From a virus, in the IMG/VR virus record IMGVR_UViG_3300032323_000840, positions 1-24,876 of that record: a stretch of 24,876 bases of DNA, one strand, 5' to 3'. The notes below the pieces were generated by a model, which saw only the letters and a program-made list of their open reading frames with translations, was not told the DNA's origin and did not search any database. Within the stretch, counting starts at the first letter, position 1. Each line of letters starts with the position of its first letter. Positions 2,366 through 17,800 of the stretch are shown one piece after another. The position numbers and the translations under genes were made by a program.

Positions 2366-2868
2366 TGCTGTCTTTAATTTCTACCCTCGGCGGCCTGCTC
2401 ATCAGCGGTCTGCCCAAGCTGCTCGAATACTTCCAAAACAAGGCCGACCAAAAGCACGAGTTGGCTTTGGCCCGGATGCAAAACGAGCGCGAGTTGGCTC
2501 TGGCCGCGCAGGGCTACGCCGCGCAGCAAAAGATCGAAGAGATTCGCACCGAGCAGGTCATGATGCAGACCGAGGCGCAGATGACCGAGGCCGCGCTGCA
2601 ACACGACGAGAAGGTGCTCGACAGGGCGCACAAGTGGGTCGCCTCCTACGTCGGCACCGTGCGCCCGACGGTGACGTACATCTTCGTAATTGAATTGGTG
2701 CTGATCAACCTGTTCCTGTGCTACTACCTGTACACGAACCCCGGCATGATCAAGAGCATGGACGACGTGCTGCGCTACTCGGACATCATCTTCAGCCCCG
2801 ATGAAATGTCGATGCTCGGCGCGATTATCGGTTTCTGGTTCGGGACGCGGACCTGGGGCAAGAAGTGA
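2365..2868 (+). CDS. Holin, three-transmembrane GTA-type
   Basis: A 167-residue protein. Hydrophobic segments lie at about 2-20, 101-123 and 149-162, with a charged helical region (about 24-95) between the first two. The VGTVRPTVTYIFVIELV stretch and the C-terminal MLGAIIGFWFGTRTW block match the family called holin of 3TMs, for gene-transfer release. Such holins form inner-membrane lesions that release the endolysin. The start overlaps the previous stop (TAATG), and the stop overlaps the GTG of the next gene. The endolysin gene is one gene downstream, separated by a homing endonuclease. Confidence 0.78.
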   Translation: MLSLISTLGGLLISGLPKLLEYFQNKADQKHELALARMQNERELALAAQGYAAQQKIEEIRTEQVMMQTEAQMTEAALQHDEKVLDRAHKWVASYVGTVRPTVTYIFVIELVLINLFLCYYLYTNPGMIKSMDDVLRYSDIIFSPDEMSMLGAIIGFWFGTRTWGKK

Positions 2869-3557
2869 TCGGCCTGTATGCCATTGTCCACGCGCCTACT
2901 AACAAGGCGTATGTGGGCAGTAGCAAAGACATCCGAAAGAGACTTGCGTGCCACGCAAGTTTTTTGCGGCGTGGAAAACATCACTGCACGCACCTTCAAA
3001 ACGCGTATCGTCTTTACGGCCAGTCTGCCTTTACGTTTAAGGTTTTGGCTACGTGTGATACGCGAGACGAAGCGCAAGAACTAGAGCAAGCGGTGCTAGA
3101 CATTTGGTACGGCGGCCTCTACAACGCGTCTAAAAGGGCGGACCACTTGCACCGCTTAGGACGACCGCTGCCAGAAGAAGTCAAGGCAAAGATTGGCGCA
3201 AAAAATTCTGGTGCTATCAGGTCTGTTGAACAGCGCCAAAAAATAGCGCAGTCTTTAAAAGACAGATACGCCAGCGGCATGGTAAGCCCACAACGCGGCA
3301 AAAAACACACTGAAGAGACAAAAGCAAAAATCAAGGCTAAACGCGCGCTTCAAGGCGCGACAAATCGTGGGTACGTGGCCTCGGCCCAGACGCGTCAAAA
3401 GCAAGCGTTGGCAAAAATTGGCAATAGATGCCACGCCAAAACCGTATGCACTGACGTCGCCTGTTTTTTCGGCCTTGATACCGCTGCCAAGCACTACGGA
3501 GTGTCGGCGCCGACGTTTCGCAAAATGATGGCGCGTAATGGCTGGGGGTTTGTATGA
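2865..3557 (+). CDS. GIY-YIG homing endonuclease with NUMOD3-type repeats
   Basis: The 230-residue product has the GIY-YIG core at its N-terminus: Gly3-Leu-Tyr5, Tyr16-Val-Gly18, Arg24/Arg26 and a Glu (Glu72/Glu74) in the helix before Tyr86-Asn87. Two NUMOD3-like DNA-binding motifs follow (GRPLPEEVKAKIGAKNSG at 99-116 and GKKHTEETKAKIKAKRA at 145-161). A C-terminal helix-turn-helix-like stretch (about 204-225) resembles a NUMOD1-type element. It is probably a free-standing, Seg/Hef-like endonuclease that spreads its own gene. It starts with GTG in a GTGA overlap with the holin stop and overlaps the endolysin start. Its codons are noticeably more A/T-rich than those of neighbouring genes, consistent with recent arrival. 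Confidence 0.87.
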   Translation: MIGLYAIVHAPTNKAYVGSSKDIRKRLACHASFLRRGKHHCTHLQNAYRLYGQSAFTFKVLATCDTRDEAQELEQAVLDIWYGGLYNASKRADHLHRLGRPLPEEVKAKIGAKNSGAIRSVEQRQKIAQSLKDRYASGMVSPQRGKKHTEETKAKIKAKRALQGATNRGYVASAQTRQKQALAKIGNRCHAKTVCTDVACFFGLDTAAKHYGVSAPTFRKMMARNGWGFV

Positions 3558-6298: not shown

Positions 6299-6456
6299 TT
6301 GTCCACCCCGAACGCCTTGCGGATGAGATCGGCTGCTTGGTACGGCTCGGCCTCGTCGGCGATCTCGGCGCAGCGTTTGGCCGTTGCCTCGCGCTCGGCC
6401 TTCACCGCCGCCTCAAGTTCTGATCGGTAGCACAGGGTGTCGTCGTCATCTTTCAT
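6295..6456 (-). CDS. Very small acidic helical protein
   Basis: A 53-residue ORF, MKDDDDTLCYRSELEAAVKA onward, rich in Glu, Ala and Lys and predicted as a helical coiled coil. GGAGGG lies seven bases before the ATG, one of the best ribosome binding sites in this operon. Both ends overlap neighbours by four bases (ATGA with the upstream gene and GTGA with the nuclease), the pattern of a translationally coupled chain. I read it by direct translation of the minus strand. Function unknown; it may simply be the next small early protein. Confidence 0.68.
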   Translation of the reverse strand: MKDDDDTLCYRSELEAAVKAEREATAKRCAEIADEAEPYQAADLIRKAFGVDK

Positions 6457-6641
6457 TCCAAAGCCCTCCATCTGCTCTTAGGCTCACTCGCCCGTTGGAC
6501 GTAGAAGTGAATCAGGAAATTAAAAATCTGCACGTAGGTCATGTCGATGCCGGTGTCGCGTTTGATGCGCTCGCGGATCAGGTCGATGTCCTTTGTCACT
6601 GGCACAGTGATGCGCTTGGCATCAGTACGGGGCTTGCTCAT
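6453..6641 (-). CDS. Small, possibly ribbon-helix-helix-like protein
   Basis: A 62-residue protein. The pattern KRITVPVTKDIDLIRERIKR followed by DTGIDMTYVQIFNFLIHFYV resembles a beta-strand plus two helices, as in Arc/CopG-type DNA-binding proteins, although the second helix is unusually aromatic. AAGGA precedes the ATG at 6641. It sits near the head of the leftward operon, close to the divergent promoter region, where an autoregulator would fit. The fold assignment is tentative and based on pattern only. Confidence 0.65.
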   Translation of the reverse strand: MSKPRTDAKRITVPVTKDIDLIRERIKRDTGIDMTYVQIFNFLIHFYVQRASEPKSRWRALE

Positions 6642-6732
6642 GGTCGTCCTTGGTGGGGTCGAACTTAGCCGGCGCGGCGGGCTGGCCGGGCCGATCGAGC
6701 GGGTTGGGGAAGGGTGGGAACGGCCAGGTCAT
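6622..6732 (-). CDS. Pro-rich micro-protein in the early leftward operon
   Basis: A 36-residue ORF, MTWPFPPFPNPLDRPGQPAA onward, extremely rich in Pro and with an acidic C-terminus. The ATG at 6732 overlaps the upstream stop in an ATGA junction, and GGTGA just before it may serve as a weak ribosome binding site. The 3' end overlaps the next gene by 20 bases. The chain of four-base overlaps supports translation, but the composition is low-complexity and no family is recognised. Confidence 0.5.
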   Translation of the reverse strand: MTWPFPPFPNPLDRPGQPAAPAKFDPTKDDHEQAPY

Positions 6733-8814: not shown

Positions 8815-9396
8815 ATGCGAGTTCTCATTGCATGTGAATATTCCGGTGTCGTGCGCGATGCGTTCATCCGCGCAGGGCACGAGGCCATGAGTTGCGATCT
8901 GTTGCCGACAGACGCGCCGGGGCCACACTACCAAGGTGATGTGTTTGATGTCATCAACGACGGCTGGGACTTGATGGTTGCCCACCCGCCTTGCACCTAC
9001 TTGTCCGTCAGCGGTATGCACTGGACGACGCGCGGTCTGCGCGACCCGCAACTGACCGAGGACGCGCTGGCGTTCGTGCAGCGCCTGATGGACGCGCCAG
9101 TCGAGCGCATCGCCATCGAGAACCCGGTGAGCATCATCAGCACGCGCATTCGCAAGCCAGACCAGATCATCCAGCCGTGGTGGTTCGGCCATGACGCGAG
9201 CAAGAAGACGTGCCTGTGGCTCAAGAACCTGCCACTGCTCACGCCGACCGACATGCTGCCGGGCGACGCCAAGACGCGGCGGGGCAACCAGACGGCCAGC
9301 GGCCAGAACAAACTGCCGCCCAGCAAGGACCGCTGGAAGATCAGATCGGCCACCTACAAAGGCATCGCAGACGCGATGGCAGCGCAATGGGGGTGA
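8815..9396 (+). CDS. Compact cytosine-C5 DNA methyltransferase-like protein
   Basis: A 193-residue protein. The N-terminal MRVLIACEYSGVVRDAFIRA acts as a motif I-like SAM-binding strand and loop. VAHPPCTYLS gives the catalytic Pro-Cys (Cys60) of motif IV, and IENP at 101-104 matches the Glu-Asn of motif VI. It is far shorter than typical Dcm enzymes (over 300 residues), with no evident target-recognition domain, and Trp-rich segments fill the C-terminal part. It may protect phage DNA or modify free nucleotides; the substrate is uncertain. There is no Shine-Dalgarno sequence: the ATG directly follows a terminator T tract. The stop overlaps the polymerase start region. Confidence 0.74.
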   Translation: MRVLIACEYSGVVRDAFIRAGHEAMSCDLLPTDAPGPHYQGDVFDVINDGWDLMVAHPPCTYLSVSGMHWTTRGLRDPQLTEDALAFVQRLMDAPVERIAIENPVSIISTRIRKPDQIIQPWWFGHDASKKTCLWLKNLPLLTPTDMLPGDAKTRRGNQTASGQNKLPPSKDRWKIRSATYKGIADAMAAQWG

Positions 9397-11318
9397 CGCT
9401 CTGGATCGACTTCGAGACGCGCAGCCGGGTTGACCTCGGCGCCAAAGGCGTCTATAACTACGCGCAGGACATGAGCACCGAGGTGCTGTGCATGTCCTAC
9501 GCCTTCGACGATGGCGAGGTCGTCACCTGGACGCCCGACCAGCCCTTCCCCGAAGATGTGCGGCGCCACGAGGGGCCGATCTACGCCCACAACGCCGCGT
9601 TCGAGCGGCTGATCTTCTCCTACGTGCTGCAAGTGCCGTTCAGGCTGGAGCAGTTCTACTGCACCGCCACGCAGGCCCGTGCCAACTGCGCGCCTGGCAG
9701 CCTTGAGGACGTGGGGCGCTTCGCCAGCGCGTCCATGAAGAAGGACCACCGAGGCGCGCAACTGATCCGCTTGCTGTCGATCCCGCAGGCTGACGGCAAG
9801 TTCCGCGAGGACGCGGCGCTGATGGCCGAGATGATCCGCTACTGCGAGCAGGACGTCAGGGCCATGCGCGAGATCAGCAAGGCCATGCGGCCGCTGTCTG
9901 AGGACGAGCTTGCCGACTATCACGTCAACGAGCGCATCAACGATCGCGGCGTGCTGGTGGACGTGGCGCTCGCTAAGGCCGCCATGCGCTACGCCCACGA
10001 CGAGTTGATTGAGATCGAGGAGCGCGTCGCGGAACTGACCGACGGCGACATCACCAGCGTTCGCTCGCCTAAGATGCGCGAGTGGGTGCTTGAGCGCGTC
10101 GGCGAGCAGGCCAAGAAGCTGATGATGGTCAACGGCAAGTATTCGATTGACAAGACTGTGCGGGCTAACCTGCTTGCGATGGAGAACCCTGATGAAGTAC
10201 CGCCCGTTGTTGCCGAGGTTATACAGTGCGCCAGCGACCTCTGGGCGTCGTCGGTTGCGAAGTTCCATCGCATGGCAGACCTGGCAGACGACGAAGATTG
10301 TCGAGTCCGTGGAGCTTTTGTCTTCGCTGGGGGTGCCGCCACAGGTCGTGCGTCGAGCTATGGACTCCAGGTGCATAACTTCCCTCGCAAGTGCGCTAAG
10401 GAACCTGACGCAGTTCGAATCGCTATGGTCCGAGGACACGCTATCGTCCCAGCTTACGGACGCCGAGTTACAGATGTACTACGGGGAATGCTCCGGCCCG
10501 CACTGATACCGGCCAAGGGTAAGCACCTCGTCGTCGCCGACTGGTCGGCCATCGAAGGGCGCGTCAACCCGTGGCTGGCCGCCAGCGACCAAGGCGAGGC
10601 CAAGCTGGACGTGTTCCGCAAGAAGCTCGACCCGTACAAGGTCAACGCCGCTGCGACCTACAGCGTGGCCTACGACGACGTGACGGGCGAGCAGCGCCAG
10701 GTCGGCAAGGTGCAGGAGTTGGCGCTAGGCTTCGCCGGGGGTGTGGGCGCCTTCGCTGCGATGGGCCGCGCCTATGGCGTGCACTTCGAGGAGGCGCAGG
10801 CCCGGCGCATCGTCGAGGCGTGGCGCCGCGCCAACCCGTGGTCCGTGCGCTTCTGGCAGCAACTGGAGGAGGCGTACACCCGCGCCATGCGTAACGTCGG
10901 GCACGAGTTCTACGCCGGGCGCGTGGCGTATATGTTCGACGGGCAACACCTGTGGTACGCCCTGCCGTCGCGGCGCGTGCTATGCTACCCCTACGCCCGG
11001 CTTGATGGCGATGGGGTGACTTACGCCAAAGCATCTTGGAAGCCCGCCGCCGACGCGACAGAATGGCCCCGAGCGCGCCTTTGGAAAGGGCTTGCGTGCG
11101 AGAACATCACCCAAGCCACGGCCAATGACATCCTGCGCCACGCCCTGCGACAACTCGACGGCGTGGTGCTGCACGTCCACGACGAGATCGTCGTCGAGAC
11201 AGACAATCCCGAAGCCGTCAAGCAGGAGATGGAGCGTATCATGTGCTCCCCGCCTGCATGGGCCGAGGGCATCCCGCTGGCCGTTGAAGCCACCACCATG
11301 ACAAGGTATGGAAAATAA
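9387..11318 (+). CDS. DNA polymerase, family A (Pol I-like) with 3'-5' exonuclease
   Basis: A 643-residue phage replicative polymerase. Exonuclease motifs: Asp8-x-Glu10 in WIDFETRS, then HNAAFERL, and YCEQDVRAM. Polymerase motif A is Asp385 in VADWSAIEGRV; the motif B helix runs from Arg437 to Lys441 (RQVGKVQELALGFAGG); motif C is His598-Asp599-Glu600 in HVHDEIVVE. The 5'-3' nuclease domain of cellular Pol I is absent, as usual for phage enzymes. ATG 9387 is chosen; GTG 9393, in a GTGA overlap with the methyltransferase stop, is the alternative. Neither has a strong ribosome binding site, which suggests coupling to the upstream gene. Confidence 0.95.
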   Translation: MGVTLWIDFETRSRVDLGAKGVYNYAQDMSTEVLCMSYAFDDGEVVTWTPDQPFPEDVRRHEGPIYAHNAAFERLIFSYVLQVPFRLEQFYCTATQARANCAPGSLEDVGRFASASMKKDHRGAQLIRLLSIPQADGKFREDAALMAEMIRYCEQDVRAMREISKAMRPLSEDELADYHVNERINDRGVLVDVALAKAAMRYAHDELIEIEERVAELTDGDITSVRSPKMREWVLERVGEQAKKLMMVNGKYSIDKTVRANLLAMENPDEVPPVVAEVIQCASDLWASSVAKFHRMADLADDEDCRVRGAFVFAGGAATGRASSYGLQVHNFPRKCAKEPDAVRIAMVRGHAIVPAYGRRVTDVLRGMLRPALIPAKGKHLVVADWSAIEGRVNPWLAASDQGEAKLDVFRKKLDPYKVNAAATYSVAYDDVTGEQRQVGKVQELALGFAGGVGAFAAMGRAYGVHFEEAQARRIVEAWRRANPWSVRFWQQLEEAYTRAMRNVGHEFYAGRVAYMFDGQHLWYALPSRRVLCYPYARLDGDGVTYAKASWKPAADATEWPRARLWKGLACENITQATANDILRHALRQLDGVVLHVHDEIVVETDNPEAVKQEMERIMCSPPAWAEGIPLAVEATTMTRYGK

Positions 11319-11320
11319 AA

Positions 11321-11342
11321 ACGCCCGGTTGCAGCCGGGCGT
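11321..11342. terminator. Intercistronic hairpin, terminator-like for leftward transcripts
   Basis: An eight-pair perfect stem (ACGCCCGG/CCGGGCGT) with a six-base loop. On the plus strand it lies between the polymerase stop and the AAGGAG of the next gene and is not followed by a T run. On the minus strand it is followed by TTTTTATTTT, a good intrinsic terminator, although no leftward gene enters it. Confidence 0.55.
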
Positions 11343-11362
11343 CTTCACCAAAGGAGCTATTG

Positions 11363-13672
11363 ATGGATTTCTTGGAGTATATGACAAATCTCGCGCCCGA
11401 GGGCGAGACGTTCTTGGTTGTCAGGCAAAAGCCACAACTGAAGGACGGGCAGATGCAGTACCACGCCGACGGCGCGGTCAAGGCCACCTGGCCGGCGTTC
11501 CTGCCCACGCACAAGATGAAGGACGGGCAGTCGTGGTACGGCAACACCGCCAGCTTCATCGTTGACCGCTTCACCGACGGCAAGGTCAGCGCCTCGGCGG
11601 CCAACTGCGAGTACGTGCTCTGCATGGTGCTCGACGACGTGGGCGATCCTGAGAAGGCGCCCAAGACGCCGCCGCTGGCCCCGACCTGGATCATGGAGAC
11701 GAGCGAGGGCAGCGTCCAGTGGGGCTACGCCTTCGGCTTGGACGACCAGCCGACCAAGGCCGAGTACAGCGCGGCCATCCTAGCGATCGCCGAGGCCGGC
11801 TACAGCGACCGTGGCGCGATCAATCCGGTGCGGAACTTCCGCCTGCCTAGCTCGGTCAACATGAAGCCCGGCCGCAACAGCTTCGCCTCGCGCCTGGTCG
11901 AGTTCCACCCCGAACGGCAGTTCACCCTGCCCCAGATATGCGAGGCGCTCGGCGTCGCCCCGGCCGAGGCCGGCAGCAACCCTTACCGCCCGATCCGCGT
12001 CTCCGACGACGGCGCCGACGACGTGTTGGCCTGGCTGTCGGGGCAGGGGCTGGTGCTGGCCAAGCCGAACGCGCAGGGCTGGGCCGGTGTCATTTGCCCC
12101 AACAGCGCCGAGCACAGCGACGGCAACCCAGAGGGGCGCTACAACCCCAGTATGCGCGCGTTCTGCTGCCTGCACAGCCATTGCATTGATCTGGACAGCA
12201 ATACGTTCCTTGAGTGGGTGGCGAGCCAAGGCGGCCCGTCCCACGCCCCTGGCCTGCGCGATGAGCTACTGGCGTCGATGATGGCCGGCGCGCTCGACAA
12301 GCTAGAGCCTACCAAGGCGTTTCCCGACGAGGCCAAGCGCGTGATCGCCGAGGTCGAGCGCAAGGAGCTTGGCCGCACGACGATGGCCGACTGGTACAAG
12401 CGGTTCTGTTACGTCCAAGAAGGCGACCACTACTTTGACCTGCAAGACCGCCGCGAGATCAGCCGCAGCACCTTCAACGCGTTATTCCGGCACATCGAAT
12501 GCCGGTCGCGCTTCGGCAAGAAGCCCAAGATCGAGGCCAGTTACTGCTTCGACGAGAACCGCCAAGAGATGGGCGCCCGCGCCCTGGTCGGCATCACCTA
12601 CGCCGCCGGCGAGGGCGTGCTGGTGGCCCGTGACGGCGACGTGTATGGCAACCGCTGGCGCGACGCCCGGCCGCCCGTTTCAGGTGGGGGCGACGTCAGC
12701 CCCTGGTTGGCCCACTGCGAGGCGCTCATCCCCGAGGCGTCCGAGCGCGAGCACGTCTTTAACGTGATGGCCTATAAAGTCCAACATCCAGAAGTGAAGA
12801 TCAACCACGCCGTGCTGCACGGTGGCGACCAAGGCTGTGGCAAGGACACGCTGTGGGCGCCGTTCATCTGGGCCGTGTGCGGGCCGCAACTGAAAAACCG
12901 GGGCTTGCTCGACAATGACACGCTTGGGTCACAGTGGGGCTACGCGCTAGAGTCCGAGATTTTGATTCTCAACGAACTAAAAGAGCCAGAAGCCAAGGAC
13001 CGCCGCGCCCTTGCCAACAAGCTCAAGCCCGTGATCGCCGCGCCGCCGGATATGCTTACGATCAACCGCAAGGGGCTGCACCCGTATGACAGTTTGAACC
13101 GGATGTTCGTCCTTGCGTTTTCCAACGACCCTGTGCCGATCAGCCTAGATTCGCAGGACCGCCGCTGGTTCGCGATTTGGTCTACCGCGCCCCGTATGGC
13201 CCCAGACGCCGCCGCGCGGCTGTGGGCTTGGTACAAGGCCGGCGGCTATGAGGCGATCGCTGCCTGGCTGCACGCCCGTGACGTCTCGGCGTTCAACCCG
13301 TCCGCAGCGCCGGCTTGGACTGAGTTCAAAGCGAACCTGGTCGAGCATGGGATGAGCATTGCCGAGTCCTACTTGGTCGAGATGATGCGCGCGCGTCGGG
13401 GCGAGTTCGCCCGTGGCGTCGTCGGATCGCCCTTCCACGCCCTATGCGATCGCGTGGCCGGCTCGGCGCCGTCTGGCGTGAAAGTGCCCCAGGCGGCCTT
13501 GCTGCACGCCCTTAAAGAAGCCGGCTGGATCGATTGCGGGCGCCTGAAGTCGCGCGCCTATGACAACCGCAAGCATGTGTTTTGCGCGCCTGACATGGTG
13601 CAGCACAGCAAGTCCGAATTGCGCGACATGGTTGAGGAAACCGCGCCGGCCCTGATGGTGCGGGTCAAGTAA
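11363..13672 (+). CDS. Primase-helicase, DUF5906/VapE-like SF3-type ATPase
   Basis: A 769-residue protein. The N-terminal half is RepB-primase-like (VLDDVGDPEKAP metal-binding acidic block; METSEGSVQWGY). A Cys/His-rich zone at about 240-270 (VICPNSAEH, FCCLHSHC) may bind zinc. The C-terminal ATPase has Walker A GGDQGCGKDTL (Lys494), Walker B ILILNELKE (Glu538), sensor FSNDP (Asn588) and Arg599-Arg600 in DRRW as likely arginine finger. It should prime and unwind DNA with the polymerase encoded just upstream. AAGGAG sits six bases before ATG 11363; a TTG immediately upstream is ignored. Last gene of the replication operon. Confidence 0.88.
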   Translation: MDFLEYMTNLAPEGETFLVVRQKPQLKDGQMQYHADGAVKATWPAFLPTHKMKDGQSWYGNTASFIVDRFTDGKVSASAANCEYVLCMVLDDVGDPEKAPKTPPLAPTWIMETSEGSVQWGYAFGLDDQPTKAEYSAAILAIAEAGYSDRGAINPVRNFRLPSSVNMKPGRNSFASRLVEFHPERQFTLPQICEALGVAPAEAGSNPYRPIRVSDDGADDVLAWLSGQGLVLAKPNAQGWAGVICPNSAEHSDGNPEGRYNPSMRAFCCLHSHCIDLDSNTFLEWVASQGGPSHAPGLRDELLASMMAGALDKLEPTKAFPDEAKRVIAEVERKELGRTTMADWYKRFCYVQEGDHYFDLQDRREISRSTFNALFRHIECRSRFGKKPKIEASYCFDENRQEMGARALVGITYAAGEGVLVARDGDVYGNRWRDARPPVSGGGDVSPWLAHCEALIPEASEREHVFNVMAYKVQHPEVKINHAVLHGGDQGCGKDTLWAPFIWAVCGPQLKNRGLLDNDTLGSQWGYALESEILILNELKEPEAKDRRALANKLKPVIAAPPDMLTINRKGLHPYDSLNRMFVLAFSNDPVPISLDSQDRRWFAIWSTAPRMAPDAAARLWAWYKAGGYEAIAAWLHARDVSAFNPSAAPAWTEFKANLVEHGMSIAESYLVEMMRARRGEFARGVVGSPFHALCDRVAGSAPSGVKVPQAALLHALKEAGWIDCGRLKSRAYDNRKHVFCAPDMVQHSKSELRDMVEETAPALMVRVK

Positions 13673-13677
13673 AGAAA

Positions 13678-13708
13678 AACCCCCACGGGCTTGTGGCCGG
13701 TGGGGGTT
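13678..13708 (-). terminator. Intrinsic terminator of the leftward small-protein operon
   Basis: Arms 13678-13686 and 13700-13708 form nine pairs, extended by three GGC/GCC pairs after one G-G mismatch, with a five-base loop. Read leftward it is followed by TTTCTTT, so it best serves the minus-strand operon. In the plus direction the T run is only two bases, but it may still slow the converging transcript. Confidence 0.75.
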
Positions 13709-13729
13709 AAAACAGGAGGTGGCAACTGC

Positions 13730-13792
13730 TCAGAGGTCGAGGAAGACTACTAGCAGTGCCACTAGTGTAACCGCAATCAATCCTGCGACCAT
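13730..13792 (-). CDS. Hydrophobic micro-protein, 20 residues
   Basis: A 20-codon ORF encoding MVAGLIAVTLVALLVVF and a short acidic end, essentially one transmembrane helix. AGGAAGG is placed six bases before the ATG. Its start overlaps the upstream gene by 16 bases, and it is the last ORF before the operon terminator. Single-helix phage peptides of this size can act on host membrane proteins or in superinfection exclusion; any such role is speculative. Confidence is limited by length. Confidence 0.5.
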   Translation of the reverse strand: MVAGLIAVTLVALLVVFLDL

Positions 13793-13992
13793 AGGGCGCC
13801 TTCCTCGATCTGGCCGATCAGGTCGTTGCCCAGCAAGGGCAGGATGTCGACGCCGCCCACCTTGGCGCTGGTCAGGTAGGCCACCGGTGGATAGGGTGGG
13901 TCGATCTCGCTGGCCGTCTGGCCCGGCTCATACTCAAGGGTGCAGTCCAACTCTATGCCACCGAAGTGGTGCAGGTGTCCGATCGTCCTCAT
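13777..13992 (-). CDS. Small acidic hypothetical protein
   Basis: A 71-residue protein, MRTIGHLHHFGGIELDCTLE onward, with a Pro/Tyr-rich middle (EIDPPYPPVAYL) and an acidic helix near the C-terminus (LLGNDLIGQIEEGAL). The start overlaps the preceding stop in an ATGA junction, with a GGGG stretch upstream as probable ribosome binding site. It is soluble, with no cysteine pair or known catalytic motif. It belongs to a leftward operon of small unknown proteins, so host takeover or regulation is possible but not shown. Confidence 0.62.
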   Translation of the reverse strand: MRTIGHLHHFGGIELDCTLEYEPGQTASEIDPPYPPVAYLTSAKVGGVDILPLLGNDLIGQIEEGALWSQD

Positions 13993-14150
13993 CGCGCGCC
14001 CCGGTTGTATAGCTCATCTTCTAGCTGCTCAATCCGGGCCGTGGCCTCACCCAGCGCCCGCTGTAGCGCGTCGATCCGCGCCAGCAGCGCCGCCTTGTCA
14101 GTGTCGCCCGAGATGTAGGCTGCGCGTTCTTGTTCGGTGGTGGTGGTCAT
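13989..14150 (-). CDS. Small coiled-coil protein
   Basis: A 53-residue ORF read directly from the minus strand: MTTTTEQERAAYISGDTDKA, then a heptad-like helix (LLARIDALQRALGEATARI) and a short basic end. GGAG lies nine bases before the ATG. Both ends form ATGA overlaps with neighbouring genes, which strongly suggests real, coupled translation. Its size and regular Leu/Ile spacing suggest a dimerising helix; function unknown. Confidence 0.66.
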   Translation of the reverse strand: MTTTTEQERAAYISGDTDKAALLARIDALQRALGEATARIEQLEDELYNRGAR

Positions 14151-14269
14151 GGTTTCATGCTCCAAAAGTAGATTGCGAAGGGCGCGCCGATGAGCGCGGC
14201 GAAGACGAGGGCGGCCAAAAAATCGCGCCAGACGCTAGGCCGGCGCTCGGGCGTGTAGTGTTGTCTCAT
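14147..14269 (-). CDS. Small single-span membrane protein, 40 residues
   Basis: The ORF begins MRQHYTPERRPSVWRDFLAA and continues into a hydrophobic helix of about 22 residues (from Trp14 to Trp36) before a short SMKP tail. The basic N-terminus predicts it stays in the cytoplasm. GAGGAG precedes the ATG by eight bases, and ATGA overlaps link it to both neighbours. A membrane-targeted phage peptide acting during early infection is plausible but unproven. Confidence 0.66.
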   Translation of the reverse strand: MRQHYTPERRPSVWRDFLAALVFAALIGAPFAIYFWSMKP

Positions 14270-14526
14270 TCCGCATACTCCTCAAGCATGTGCTGCGCGA
14301 TCTCGCGCCAATTGACGTCGGACAGGAAGGCAAGGGCGTAGTCGCGGGCGAGGCCCGGCTCGGATGAGCACTCGACGTAGTACTCTGCGCGTTCTTGGCA
14401 GGCGTCGGCGAGCGTGTCCACGTCGTCGGCGTCGCTGAAGTCTTCAAGGGGCAGGCTGTCGAAAATTTCGAGGTTGACTCGCCAAGTGGCGTAGTTAGTC
14501 CAGCCGTTGAATTTGGTGTCGGTCAT
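14266..14526 (-). CDS. NGWTNYATW-motif protein (DUF7249-like)
   Basis: An 86-residue acidic protein. The N-terminal motif FNGWTNYATWRVNLEIFD is typical of a small family widespread on phages and mobile elements (recorded as DUF7249), whose function I do not know. The rest is helical and acidic (DFSDADDVDTLADACQ; AQHMLEEYAE). AAGGAG lies eight bases before ATG 14526, and the stop overlaps the next start. Strong negative charge could suit DNA mimicry or inhibition of a DNA-binding protein, but this is speculation from composition. Confidence 0.75.
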   Translation of the reverse strand: MTDTKFNGWTNYATWRVNLEIFDSLPLEDFSDADDVDTLADACQERAEYYVECSSEPGLARDYALAFLSDVNWREIAQHMLEEYAE

Positions 14527-14529
14527 GGC

Positions 14530-14772
14530 TCAGGCTCCTTGGCGGTTATGGTGGGCTTGCAGGCGCTGCGCGTAGGCAAGATAGGACGCATTGGCAGGAT
14601 GATCCATTGACCAACGGTCAGGCTCCGTGCCGAGGGTCTGGGCATAGGCGATAGCGTCAGCATAGGACGCCATCGGCAGGAGCTTAGGGCCAAGCTCGAC
14701 GTACACGCCATGCGTGCCTAGCTTCTTGGCGTAGTCTGACGTGGGGTAGGCGTAACCGATTGAGTGTTTCAT
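14530..14772 (-). CDS. Small hypothetical protein of the leftward operon
   Basis: An 80-residue protein starting MKHSIGYAYPTSDYAKKLGT, Tyr/Ala-rich, with a central helix (SYADAIAYAQTLGTE) and a second Tyr/Ala/Gln helix near the end. GGAG is eight bases before the ATG. It is separated by only three bases from the DUF7249-like gene and by 15 from the upstream gene. No known motif, membrane segment or metal site is seen. Function unknown. Confidence 0.64.
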   Translation of the reverse strand: MKHSIGYAYPTSDYAKKLGTHGVYVELGPKLLPMASYADAIAYAQTLGTEPDRWSMDHPANASYLAYAQRLQAHHNRQGA

Positions 14773-14787
14773 GTCGCGTGCTCCAGA

Positions 14788-14955
14788 TTAAATGGTTGAC
14801 TCTTGATACTTGCCTGCGGCCGCGTGGTCGGCGTAGGCGACGCGGGCGTCCTCTATCGTGTCGTAAACCTCGGTCCAAACCACGACGCCCGATTCGTCTG
14901 AATGCTCGGCTACGATTTGCTCGCCGTCGTCAAAGACAAAGATGGTGTCGGTCAT
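14788..14955 (-). CDS. Small acidic hypothetical protein
   Basis: A 55-residue acidic protein, MTDTIFVFDDGEQIVAEHSD onward, with alternating hydrophobic residues suggesting a small beta-sheet and a helix (TIEDARVAYADHAAAG). GGAGG lies seven bases before ATG 14955, and the longer in-frame start would overlap the upstream gene. The fold and charge resemble its upstream neighbour (also beginning with a VLFD/VFDD-type strand), so the two may be distant relatives. Function unknown. Confidence 0.63.
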   Translation of the reverse strand: MTDTIFVFDDGEQIVAEHSDESGVVVWTEVYDTIEDARVAYADHAAAGKYQESTI

Positions 14956-14957
14956 GC

Positions 14958-15176
14958 TCAAGCCTCCACAACCCAACGGAGGTACGGCTCGCCGTCGCCG
15001 TCCTCGTCGATCGTGTCAGTGCTGACGCCACCCTCTTGATAGCCGTACAACGCGCAGTCGAACGCAAAGGCAAGGGCCGGGTTCGGGTGGCTGACGCGCA
15101 GGTAGCCGTGCTTGTCGGTGGTGATGGGGGCCTGTGCGATGTGGCCCCCGTCCATATCAAACAAAACGATCATCAT
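14958..15176 (-). CDS. Small acidic hypothetical protein, first gene of the leftward operon
   Basis: A 72-residue protein. It starts MMIVLFDMDGGHIAQAPITT, contains an Ala/Phe-rich helix (ALAFAFDCALYGYQ) and ends in an acidic, Trp-containing tail. AGGAG sits eight bases before ATG 15176; the longer in-frame extension crosses the promoter and is rejected. It is the first gene after a TTGACA-type promoter. The DMDGG segment recalls a HAD-type DxD loop, but the protein is too short for a HAD enzyme, so this is not proposed as its function. Confidence 0.65.
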   Translation of the reverse strand: MMIVLFDMDGGHIAQAPITTDKHGYLRVSHPNPALAFAFDCALYGYQEGGVSTDTIDEDGDGEPYLRWVVEA

Positions 15177-15219
15177 GTTGCTTGCTCCTGGTGTTGCATC
15201 GCGTTGTTGCGATGGGGAG

Positions 15220-15248
15220 ACTGTAAGGGATTGTCTTGCAGGTGTCAA
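15220..15248 (-). promoter_or_regulatory. Sigma70-type promoter of the leftward small-protein operon
   Basis: On the minus strand TTGACA (complement of 15243-15248) is followed by a 17-base spacer and TACAGT (complement of 15220-15225). The -35 element is perfect and the -10 matches four of six. The first gene starts about 44 bases downstream. This is the best promoter in the window and suggests expression by host RNA polymerase soon after infection. Confidence 0.75.
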
Positions 15249-15488
15249 CAGCTATTTTGTAGGGACAAACCCTAAGTGTGGGTCGCGTGTGGTTAGGCGG
15301 TGGTTAGTTGTTTTGCGTGTGCGTTGTCCACGTTCGCGCCCAATGAGAAATGGCCTTTGTGGTTATTGTGGATAGTGGATTTGTAAGTCTATAAATAGAT
15401 GTGTGTTGTATATGGCTGTTAGCTGTGACGGCTCGCACATCCCGCGTCGCCGCACGCCCGCAAAGGGGGTCGACCGACTTGAAACCTA

Positions 15489-15674
15489 TTGTCCACATGG
15501 CCCACATTGCCCACAAACCCACGGCCGAACTGGCGCGAAAAAGTGACCACTAACTTATTTGTGGGCCATGTGGTCAACCGTTCGGCCATTGTCCACATTG
15601 TCCACAGCCCGCAGCACCAACTGCGCAGGCACGCAAGCCTAGCGACTGCAAAACCATTGTCCACATGACCCACA
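15489..15674. repeat. Clustered 9-base DnaA-box-like repeats
   Basis: Four exact TTGTCCACA copies (15489, 15589, 15598, 15657) are accompanied by contiguous variants on the same 9-base register: TGGCCCACA (15498), TTGCCCACA (15507) and TGACCCACA (15666). Inverted copies lie at 15560-15568 and 15569-15577. Looser sites occur at 15324 and 15367 (inverted). TTGTCCACA differs at one base from the E. coli DnaA box and equals the form favoured in some GC-rich bacteria. Confidence 0.78.
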
Positions 15675-15793
15675 GCCGGCCGGGCTTGTGAGTGAGTGCC
15701 CGCTGACCAGGGGGGGAGGGGGGGGGCCGACGGGGTAAAGGTCACAGCAGCGGAGGGGCTACAAACAATTTTTCTTTTTTCAAAAATTTTTGG

Positions 15794-15799
15794 TATATT
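15794..15799 (+). promoter_or_regulatory. Candidate -10 element for the late (terminase) operon
   Basis: TATATT lies six bases before the ATG of the small terminase; the -35 position holds only a T-rich sequence. If used, transcription would start at or next to the start codon, giving a leaderless or near-leaderless message. This agrees with the absence of a Shine-Dalgarno sequence in front of the gene. Confidence 0.35.
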
Positions 15800-15805
15800 C
15801 CGCGC

Positions 15806-16264
15806 ATGTTCGAGACTTTGCCGTATGAGCCGCGTCAGTTGCGTGCGACTGAGGATCGGCTCCATCGCATATACAAGGCTGCCAAGCGCGGCCTCAAGGG
15901 CGACGCTCTCGCGTTGGCCGCAGGCATGTTGCCCAAGGAGTACCAGCTACTCAAGCAGTTTGACGAGATCGCGGAGTACGCCGAACTCAAGGGCCGCGCC
16001 GAGGGCGAGATGGAGATGAGCGAGTTGCTGCACCAGGCAGCGCAGCAGGGCGACGCCAAGGCGGCGCTGGCGATCTTGCAGAACGTCCACGGCTGGGTCG
16101 CCAAGCAGGCCATCAGTGTGGACGTCAACCAGCAGATCAGCATCACGGCGGCGCTACAAGAGGCGCAGCGCCGCGTACTGGACGTCGTGGAGGTCATTAG
16201 TGAAGATACTTCTGTGGATCGCCTTGTTTCTAGTGATCATCTGGCTCGTCAGCCCGCTGTTTGA
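15806..16264 (+). CDS. Terminase small subunit (putative)
   Basis: A 152-residue protein directly upstream of the large terminase. The N-terminal part is helical, with an HTH-like stretch at about 31-50 (KGDALALAAGMLPKEYQLL). The centre (AALAILQNVHGWVAKQAISV and DVNQQISITAALQEAQRRV, about 87-124) resembles small terminases of podovirus-like phages, the central oligomerising region. Such proteins recognise the packaging site, which often lies in or near their own gene. There is no ribosome binding site before ATG 15806; a -10-like element lies just upstream. The C-terminal 20 residues overlap a micro-ORF in another frame and may be poorly conserved. Confidence 0.78.
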   Translation: MFETLPYEPRQLRATEDRLHRIYKAAKRGLKGDALALAAGMLPKEYQLLKQFDEIAEYAELKGRAEGEMEMSELLHQAAQQGDAKAALAILQNVHGWVAKQAISVDVNQQISITAALQEAQRRVLDVVEVISEDTSVDRLVSSDHLARQPAV

Positions 16265-16271
16265 TCTGTAA
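16200..16271 (+). CDS. Hydrophobic micro-protein overlapping small terminase, likely coupling ORF
   Basis: A 23-codon GTG-initiated ORF encoding a near-continuous transmembrane helix (KILLWIALFLVIIWLV, then SPLFDL). GGAGG stands six bases before the GTG. The TAA stop shares its last A with the ATG of the large terminase (TAATG). The large terminase has no ribosome binding site of its own, so this ORF may deliver ribosomes to it. The peptide itself could also be a small membrane protein. It is out of frame with the small terminase, and its length limits certainty. Confidence 0.55.
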   Translation: MKILLWIALFLVIIWLVSPLFDL

Positions 16272-17800
16272 TGCAGACCACACGCTACAGCGCGCAGGAC
16301 GAGCAGGAGTTAATGGCCCGGCTGTGGTCGCCGGCCATCAAGGACAACCCGCTCGCGTTCGTAATGTTTGCGTATCCGTGGGGCGTCAAGGGCACGCCGC
16401 TGGAGCACTTCACTGGACCGCGTAAGTGGCAGCGCGAGGTGCTCGCGACTATGGCCGAGCACATCAAGCAGAACGGCGGCCGTTTAGATTTTGACGTGCT
16501 GCGCCTGGCAGTCAGTTCGGGCCGTGGTATCGGCAAGTCGGCGCTAGTCAGTTGGATCACGGACTGGATGCTGTCCACGCGGATCGGCTCGACGACCATC
16601 ATCTCGGCTAACTCGGAGAGCCAGCTACGTAGTATCACCTGGGCCGAGTTGACAAAGTGGCTGGCGATGTCGATCAACAGCCACTGGTTCGAGGTGTCAG
16701 CCACCAGACTGATGCCGGCCAAGTGGCTGACCGAGCTAGTCGAGCGCGATCTGCGAAAAGGCACGCGCTACTGGGGCGTTGAGGGGCGGCTGTGGTCGGC
16801 GGAAAACCCCGACGCCTACGCTGGCGTGCACAACTTCGACGGCGTGATGGTGATTTTTGACGAGGCGTCGGGTATTGACGACTCGATCTGGGCCGTAACG
16901 AGCGGTTTTTTCACGGAAAACACGCCGAATCGCTTCTGGCTGGCGTTTTCCAACCCGCGTCGCAACACGGGGTACTTCTACGAGGCGTTTAACAGCAAAC
17001 GCGAGTTCTGGAAGTCGAAAATCGTAGACGCAAGGACGGTCGAGGGCACCGACAAGCAGGTCTACGAGCAGATCATCGCGGAATACGGGCCCGACAGCAG
17101 CCAAGCGCACGTTGAGGTGTACGGTCAGTTCCCGAACGAGGGCGACGACCAGTTCATCAGCATCGGCATCGTGGACGCGGCGATGAAGCGGCAGCCGTAC
17201 AAGGACGAATCGGCGCCGATCGTGGTCGGCGTGGACCCGGCGCGGTTCGGGGCGGACGCAACTGTCATCGCCGTGCGGCAGGGGCGGGACATTTTGAAGC
17301 TGATCAGGCACCGGGGCGACGACACCATGACGGTGGTCGGGCACGTCATCGACGCCATTGAGGAGTTCAAGCCGACGCTGGTCAACATCGACGAGGGCGG
17401 GCTAGGGGCAGGGGTCGTGGACCGGCTCAAGGAGCAGCGGTACAAGATCAGGGGTGTGAACTTCGGCAACAAGGCCAAGAACCCGATCATGTACGGCAAC
17501 AAGAGGGCAGAAATCTGGGGTGAGATGCGCGACTGGCTTAAGTCGGCCAGCGTGCCAAACGACAGGTTCTTGAAGTCTGACCTGATTTCGCCTAAGATGA
17601 AGCCCGATTCTCGTGGTACGATCTACCTAGAGTCCAAAAAGGACATGAAAGCCCGTGGTTTGGCAAGCCCCGACGCAGCCGATGCAATAGCGTTGACGTT
17701 TGCCTTCCCTGTGGCGCACCGCGAGATGCGCGAAGACAAGCAGCGCACCGCGCGGTCGATGGGCTACGGTACTGTCTCAACCTCATGGATGGGGGCGTAA
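16271..17800 (+). CDS. Terminase large subunit
   Basis: A 509-residue packaging motor. ATPase: Walker A SSGRGIGKSA with Lys89, Walker B VMVIFDEAS with Asp197-Glu198, and coupling motif region near SANSE (112-116). Nuclease (RNase H fold): Asp322 in VVGVDPARFG, Asp374 in LVNIDEGGLG and Asp468/Asp471 in SPDAADAIAL. It translocates DNA into the procapsid through the portal and cuts the concatemer. The start lies in a TAATG junction with a hydrophobic micro-ORF, and the stop overlaps the next ATG. All catalytic residues are present, so the enzyme looks intact. Confidence 0.95.
   Translation: MQTTRYSAQDEQELMARLWSPAIKDNPLAFVMFAYPWGVKGTPLEHFTGPRKWQREVLATMAEHIKQNGGRLDFDVLRLAVSSGRGIGKSALVSWITDWMLSTRIGSTTIISANSESQLRSITWAELTKWLAMSINSHWFEVSATRLMPAKWLTELVERDLRKGTRYWGVEGRLWSAENPDAYAGVHNFDGVMVIFDEASGIDDSIWAVTSGFFTENTPNRFWLAFSNPRRNTGYFYEAFNSKREFWKSKIVDARTVEGTDKQVYEQIIAEYGPDSSQAHVEVYGQFPNEGDDQFISIGIVDAAMKRQPYKDESAPIVVGVDPARFGADATVIAVRQGRDILKLIRHRGDDTMTVVGHVIDAIEEFKPTLVNIDEGGLGAGVVDRLKEQRYKIRGVNFGNKAKNPIMYGNKRAEIWGEMRDWLKSASVPNDRFLKSDLISPKMKPDSRGTIYLESKKDMKARGLASPDAADAIALTFAFPVAHREMREDKQRTARSMGYGTVSTSWMGA

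Follow-up and report, generated by a model that had tools for sequence, protein, structure and literature searches.

Which protein reads the repeated 9-mers that stand in front of the small terminase gene (TerS) of this phage, and what do these repeats do? The stretch of DNA analysed here (the window) is a contig of 24,876 bases, a fragment of a genome that measures ~37-38 kb in its relatives; the nearest annotated record is MW202483.1, a circular podovirus of 38,801 bp. A preliminary description of the window had proposed a replication origin built of DnaA boxes, with a packaging (pac) array as the main alternative. Our comparison with related sequences leads to a different answer: the array very probably represents the iterons of the phage's own origin, read by the C-terminal domain of its PrimPol-SF3 helicase.

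Two opposed arms of abutting 9-mers

The 9-mer TTGTCCACA occurs perfectly at 15489, 15589, 15598 and 15657, always on the plus strand. With the family pattern [TCA][TGA][GAT]NCCACA, nine units were found within 15489-15674, every one of them in an abutting 9-bp group (of three, two reversed, two and two). These groups constitute the right iteron arm. Block 1 (15489-15515, plus strand) consists of three abutting 9-mers, TTGTCCACA-TGGCCCACA-TTGCCCACA; it is followed by a reverse-oriented pair (15560-15577, minus strand; TTGACCACA-TGGCCCACA), by block 2 (15589-15606, plus strand; TTGTCCACA-TTGTCCACA) and by block 3 (15657-15674, plus strand; TTGTCCACA-TGACCCACA). Additional units, located outside the region originally described (15489-15674), form a left iteron arm of minus-strand units (15277-15375), made of an abutting pair at 15358-15375 (CTATCCACA-ATAACCACA) and of single units at 15277 and 15288. 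As previously noted, the DNA of the array is non-coding, and it lies between small leftward ORFs, which end at 15248, and TerS, which begins at 15806.

The family pattern gives six abutting pairs in the whole window; they all lie within 15358-15674, and abutting 9-mers are confined to the array region. In 500 first-order Markov sequences of the window's length, no stretch of 190 bp exceeded 5 sites and any abutting pair was present in 2 of the 500, a result that bears out the 9-base register, in both orientations, to which attention had been drawn. Nor is the 9-mer equally common elsewhere: no further perfect TTGTCCACA exists in the window, and allowing one mismatch gave a weak window-wide enrichment (10 seen, 4.87 expected). 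Clustering and register, more than the frequency of the 9-mer, make the array stand out. A switch in GC skew at the array, which had been suggested as a check on the origin, was not present in the window.

The AT-rich stretch reported downstream of the array does exist (15750-15809, 68-72% AT), but the position that the relatives keep is the one between the arms, where the segment 15376-15430 (65-68% AT, measured over 15370-15429) is the probable unwinding element. In 96 of 96 distinct loci of array types A or B (see below), a minus-strand unit is located 40-260 bp to the left of the first plus-strand cluster. The gap between the opposed arms has a median of 110 bp in these loci, and its AT-richest 40 bp stand at the median 99.7th percentile of the AT content of the locus. 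All 96 loci combine iteron arms and an AT-rich element near the predicted initiator gene, at a distance of 1.8 kb in the window.

Other features were seen in the surroundings of the array and in the rest of the window. A block that combines a G-run with AT-rich DNA (15709-15805, plus strand) separates the array from TerS and is, by eye, alike in relatives of either array type. The G-run part (15709-15760; GGGGGGGAGGGGGGGGG...) and the DNA that follows may be the TerS promoter, a pac site or a G-quadruplex, outside the repeat system. Several relatives (G013, G015, G016, G017, G019 and L144) have an HNH homing-endonuclease-like gene between the array and TerS. Of 112 distinct loci, 35 have a LexA-box-like CTGT-N8-ACAG sequence no more than ~1 kb from the array (for example L241, L237 and L190), whereas the rest of the downstream DNA, 431 kb, had 4. 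Far from the array, the start of an ORF at 2865-3557 (plus strand; GLYAIVHAPTNKAYVGSS) resembles a GIY-YIG endonuclease, and this ORF had no match in relatives.

Relatives keep the arrangement and change the 9-mer

The TerS-based sample contained 80 IMG/VR loci with a related TerS. The upstream regions of these relatives carry tandem 9-mers in a similar arrangement, with a 9-mer that differs: arrays of type A are built of TTGTCCACA-like units, those of type B of TGACCCAAA/T and those of type C of TGACTTACA. In the relatives, the reverse units that match the left arm switch type together with the main array. Searches with the primase and with its C-terminal domain enlarged the sample to 206 primase/array loci, with ~57 variants of residues 726-743; part of this set was fetched with an A-type domain, and type A is consequently over-represented in it. 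The array type could be assigned in 80 of 99 distinct loci, the other 19 having short, unusual or weak arrays. A word-count re-search of several of these 19, and of other untyped loci, gave none that went against the residue/9-mer code presented below. The pooled per-base consensus of the B class mixes strands and was left out of use.

Array type co-varies with the end of the primase-helicase

Association with array type was analysed residue by residue for the 16 genes shared with the window in 40 contigs. The primase-helicase gene (11363-13672, plus strand) has seven perfect columns, all in the last 41 residues of the protein (730, 732, 733, 735, 743, 756 and 765, counting the TTG at 11360 as 1). 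The other genes together have one perfect column, in the gene beginning at 6729, where ten sequences with variable residues were compared, and this column looks like chance. Among the 80 distinct typed loci, K730 and R732 were found in 43 of 43 type A loci, with CCACA, while 33 of 33 type B loci, with CCCAA/T, have A730 and one of G, A or S at position 732. When mapped on a maximum-likelihood tree built from primase residues 1-699, array type switches at least 18 times, with no mismatch, and the independent pairs on well supported branches were all concordant (11 of 11; sign test, p=0.001).

One code held throughout the 206 loci and their ~57 determinant variants. KSRxxD goes with TTGTCCACA, KSRxxG (L301 and L302) with TTACCCACA, AS[GAST][DE] with TGACCCAA/T, IASRDYL (G044) with TGACTTACA, LM[SC]R with TGACTAACA or TGACTACA, and LASRDHT (L222) with TTGCTAACA. 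When R732 is present the 9-mer ends in ACA; when it is absent the end is AA or AT. This pattern indicates that the 9-mer and the part of the primase-helicase predicted to read it changed together at least 18 times and, going by co-variation only, that the C-terminal domain sets the specificity for the iterons.

About 2 kb separate the primase tail from the array, and with such proximity a single recombination event could move both. Their close physical linkage would suit an explanation in which the two have no functional link and are simply co-inherited. This was analysed by comparing 200-bp tiles of the window with A- and B-type relatives from 11300 to 17000. Outside 13400-13750 and 15200-15750 the tiles match both kinds of relatives about equally, whereas the region 13400-13750 matches type A at 84% and type B at 72-82%, and the region 15200-15750 matches type A only or best. 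Between the primase tail and the array, 14450-14800 matches the B-type relative G003 at 91-93% and A-type relatives little or not at all, and the tiles around 14900 match either type poorly. The tail and the array have stayed matched despite exchange of the intervening DNA, which points to selection for the match. Since the DNA between tail and array, like that flanking them, does not sort with array type, and since at least 18 switches have occurred with no mismatch, co-inheritance through proximity is scarcely credible.

Predicted structure of the candidate initiator

The predicted initiator is a PrimPol-SF3 helicase (DUF5906; PHROG DNA primase; PF19263). Its full-length model, weak overall (mean pLDDT 70), comprises an AEP PrimPol domain, an SF3/D5 helicase and a C-terminal domain. 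An AEP-type PrimPol domain was found in residues 1-199 of the model, which match the S-2L PrimPol (6zp9; Z 14.1, rmsd 3.6, 169 aligned). The Walker A motif of the D5/SF3 helicase is GGDQGCGKDT, in which G491, G493, K494 and D495 are invariant in the alignment. The helicase core matches NrS-1 (6k9c; Z 14.2) and the SaPI5 primase-helicase (7om0; Z 11.8, rmsd 3.3, 185 aligned), and the alignment with dsDNA-bound PriRep1 (7pds; Z 7.5) runs into the C-terminal domain.

The C-terminal domain (residues 638-770; 13271-13669, plus strand), predicted to bind the origin, was modelled alone with AlphaFold2 as a winged helix whose core has a pLDDT of ~93. In the predicted model the determinant residues occupy the loop between strands 724-729 and 738-742, which is the wing. 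This loop (residues 730-737; 13547-13570, plus strand) contains the predicted specificity determinants K730, R732, A733 and D735, which have a perfect association with the 9-mer type. Compared with solved structures, the domain matches general winged-helix folds (best Z 6.8), and this fold is common; a sequence search of the domain against solved structures gave no relevant match and no solved origin-binding domain.

Other possible readers and functions of the array

The origin proposed in the preliminary description retains its layout, with opposed arms and an AT-rich gap, and loses its DnaA boxes, since relatives replace TTGTCCACA by other 9-mers. The reason to think of host DnaA, either in a host-driven origin or in DnaA titration, is that TTGTCCACA, a usual DnaA box of actinobacteria, differs from the consensus for DnaA, TTATCCACA, by one base. 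However, the box is not conserved. Close relatives carry TGACCCAAA and others, and TGACCCAAA, TGACTTACA or TGACTAACA stand in the same positions, in the case of TGACCCAAA with near-identical neighbour genes; a conserved host DnaA would not follow relatives that keep the array geometry but swap the 9-mer. Moreover, neither the window nor its IMG/VR relatives have a DnaA domain, and we consider a host DnaA array very improbable. A pac array recognised by TerS, as its position directly upstream of this gene might suggest, has just as little probability. The TerS of relative G001 is 99% identical to that of the window, yet the G001 array is of type B, and neither a conserved host DnaA nor TerS explains this change. 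Across array types TerS is 95-99% identical, no column of it tracks the type (best normalised MI 0.38 over all TerS residues), so the recognition sequence does not follow TerS, and in several relatives the HNH gene intervenes between the two. Among the remaining candidates, the ribbon-helix-helix-like ORF at 6453-6641 (minus strand) was found in no relative, none of the leftward small genes was seen to track the array type, and the window has no consensus LexA box. A phage protein with a DnaA domain was also discarded as the binder, since MW202483 alone has one among the records searched. This small protein (31423-31719 in MW202483.1, the locus L144) clearly carries the C-terminal domain of DnaA (PF08299, 64 bits), which the other records searched lack. 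The MW202483.1 array is built of GTTTACATAAAC-like repeats.

It is unlikely, too, that the array is essentially an operator, through which the C-terminal domain of the primase-helicase would mainly regulate the divergent leftward and TerS promoters while replication started elsewhere. The array does lie between divergent genes, its minus-strand units are close to the leftward genes, and LexA-box-like sites are frequent in this region of the relatives. But the sole covarying protein is the primase-helicase and not a repressor, and opposed arms around an AT-rich segment are the layout of an origin. Units are also present at the leftward promoter region of the window; regulation by the same sites, as autoregulation of the leftward promoter, is possible and would be compatible with origin function. 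Overall, the comparison of relatives supports the two-armed layout, the co-variation, the exclusion of TerS and the lack of a conserved dependence on DnaA.

A proposed origin with an exchangeable reader

For the origin read by the phage's own primase-helicase, we infer direct binding, melting and the start of replication at the array. The winged-helix C-terminal domain would read the 9-mers, mainly via the wing loop (residues 730-735), and hexamers would load on both arms (left, 15277-15375; right, 15489-15674). Between the arms, the AT-rich segment 15376-15430 would then melt, the N-terminal PrimPol domain would prime, and synthesis would be handed over to the phage DNA polymerase (9387-11318). 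The likeness of TTGTCCACA to a DnaA box would be a coincidence.

A bolder proposal, to which we give somewhat less than an even chance, is that the wing loop works as an exchangeable cassette that sets specificity by a readable code (for example, C at base 8 would go with R732, CC at bases 5-6 with K730 and T at base 5 with M730), and that in aquatic phages the origin type switches again and again because something, be it competing phages, satellites or nucleases directed at origins, selects against a shared origin.

These results name a probable origin and a predicted initiator for a group of freshwater podoviruses that is abundant and has hardly been studied. With at least 18 switches and ~57 wing variants in 206 loci, the natural variation makes a residue-to-base code testable by simple binding assays, and with repeated switching the reason for changing origin type becomes directly testable. 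They also call for caution with DnaA boxes that look perfect in a phage, as such sites can be those of its own initiator.

Comparison with known systems

In the alpha protein of P4 a single chain carries a primase, an SF3 helicase and, at its C-terminus, a winged-helix domain that binds the origin, as predicted here, and P4 ori and crr have short repeats in both orientations, as in the window array, although the P4 repeats are 8-mers and not 9-mers. P4 alpha gave no sequence or fold match among the listed matches of the C-terminal domain. As the domain has general winged-helix matches and no sequence relative of known structure was found for it, any closer kinship with P4 alpha is no more than a possibility. 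The lambdoid phages also exchange type-specific initiator/origin pairs among related phages, but lambda O lacks a helicase function and is encoded by a gene that itself contains the iterons, both unlike the window. Bacterial oriC shares 9-mer boxes and an AT-rich unwinding element with the window, where, in contrast, the 9-mer varies among relatives and the predicted reader is phage-encoded.

The SaPI Rep helicases read iterons by their C-terminal domain; in the related Cch2, this domain binds the putative origin, and the direct repeats there are required (PMC7581432). SaPI5 Rep/PriRep1 and SaPIbov1 Rep resemble the window protein in being helicases with a C-terminal domain that recognises short origin repeats, as co-variation suggests for the window protein. 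SaPI5 has the same architecture, a PrimPol fused to a D5/SF3 helicase, and the SaPI structures 7om0, 7ola and 7pds match the window model over the helicase and into the C-terminal domain. However, the SaPI origin is directly downstream of rep, whereas that of the window would be 1.8 kb from the initiator gene, past the small leftward gene cluster and adjoining the terminase; the carrier here is a P22-like podovirus and not a satellite; and abutting 9-bp units and the predicted wing-loop specificity are features of the window family, unlike SaPI.

In the PLE satellites of V. cholerae, the DNA-binding domain of RepA varies in concert with the origin and has been exchanged on more than one occasion, and replication requires a cognate pair; the selection is suggested to come from a phage nuclease directed at one of the origin types (PMC8263062). 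The likeness is that of an initiator DNA-binding domain that co-varies with origin iterons through repeated swaps, which in PLE was confirmed experimentally (PMC8263062). PLE RepA belongs to another protein family than the window protein, with an N-terminal RepA_N domain and semi-palindromic iterons of ~30 bp. Judged from sequence comparison, the present case belongs with the known iteron-reading initiators, and what it adds is a family of free phages in which the predicted specificity maps to one loop.
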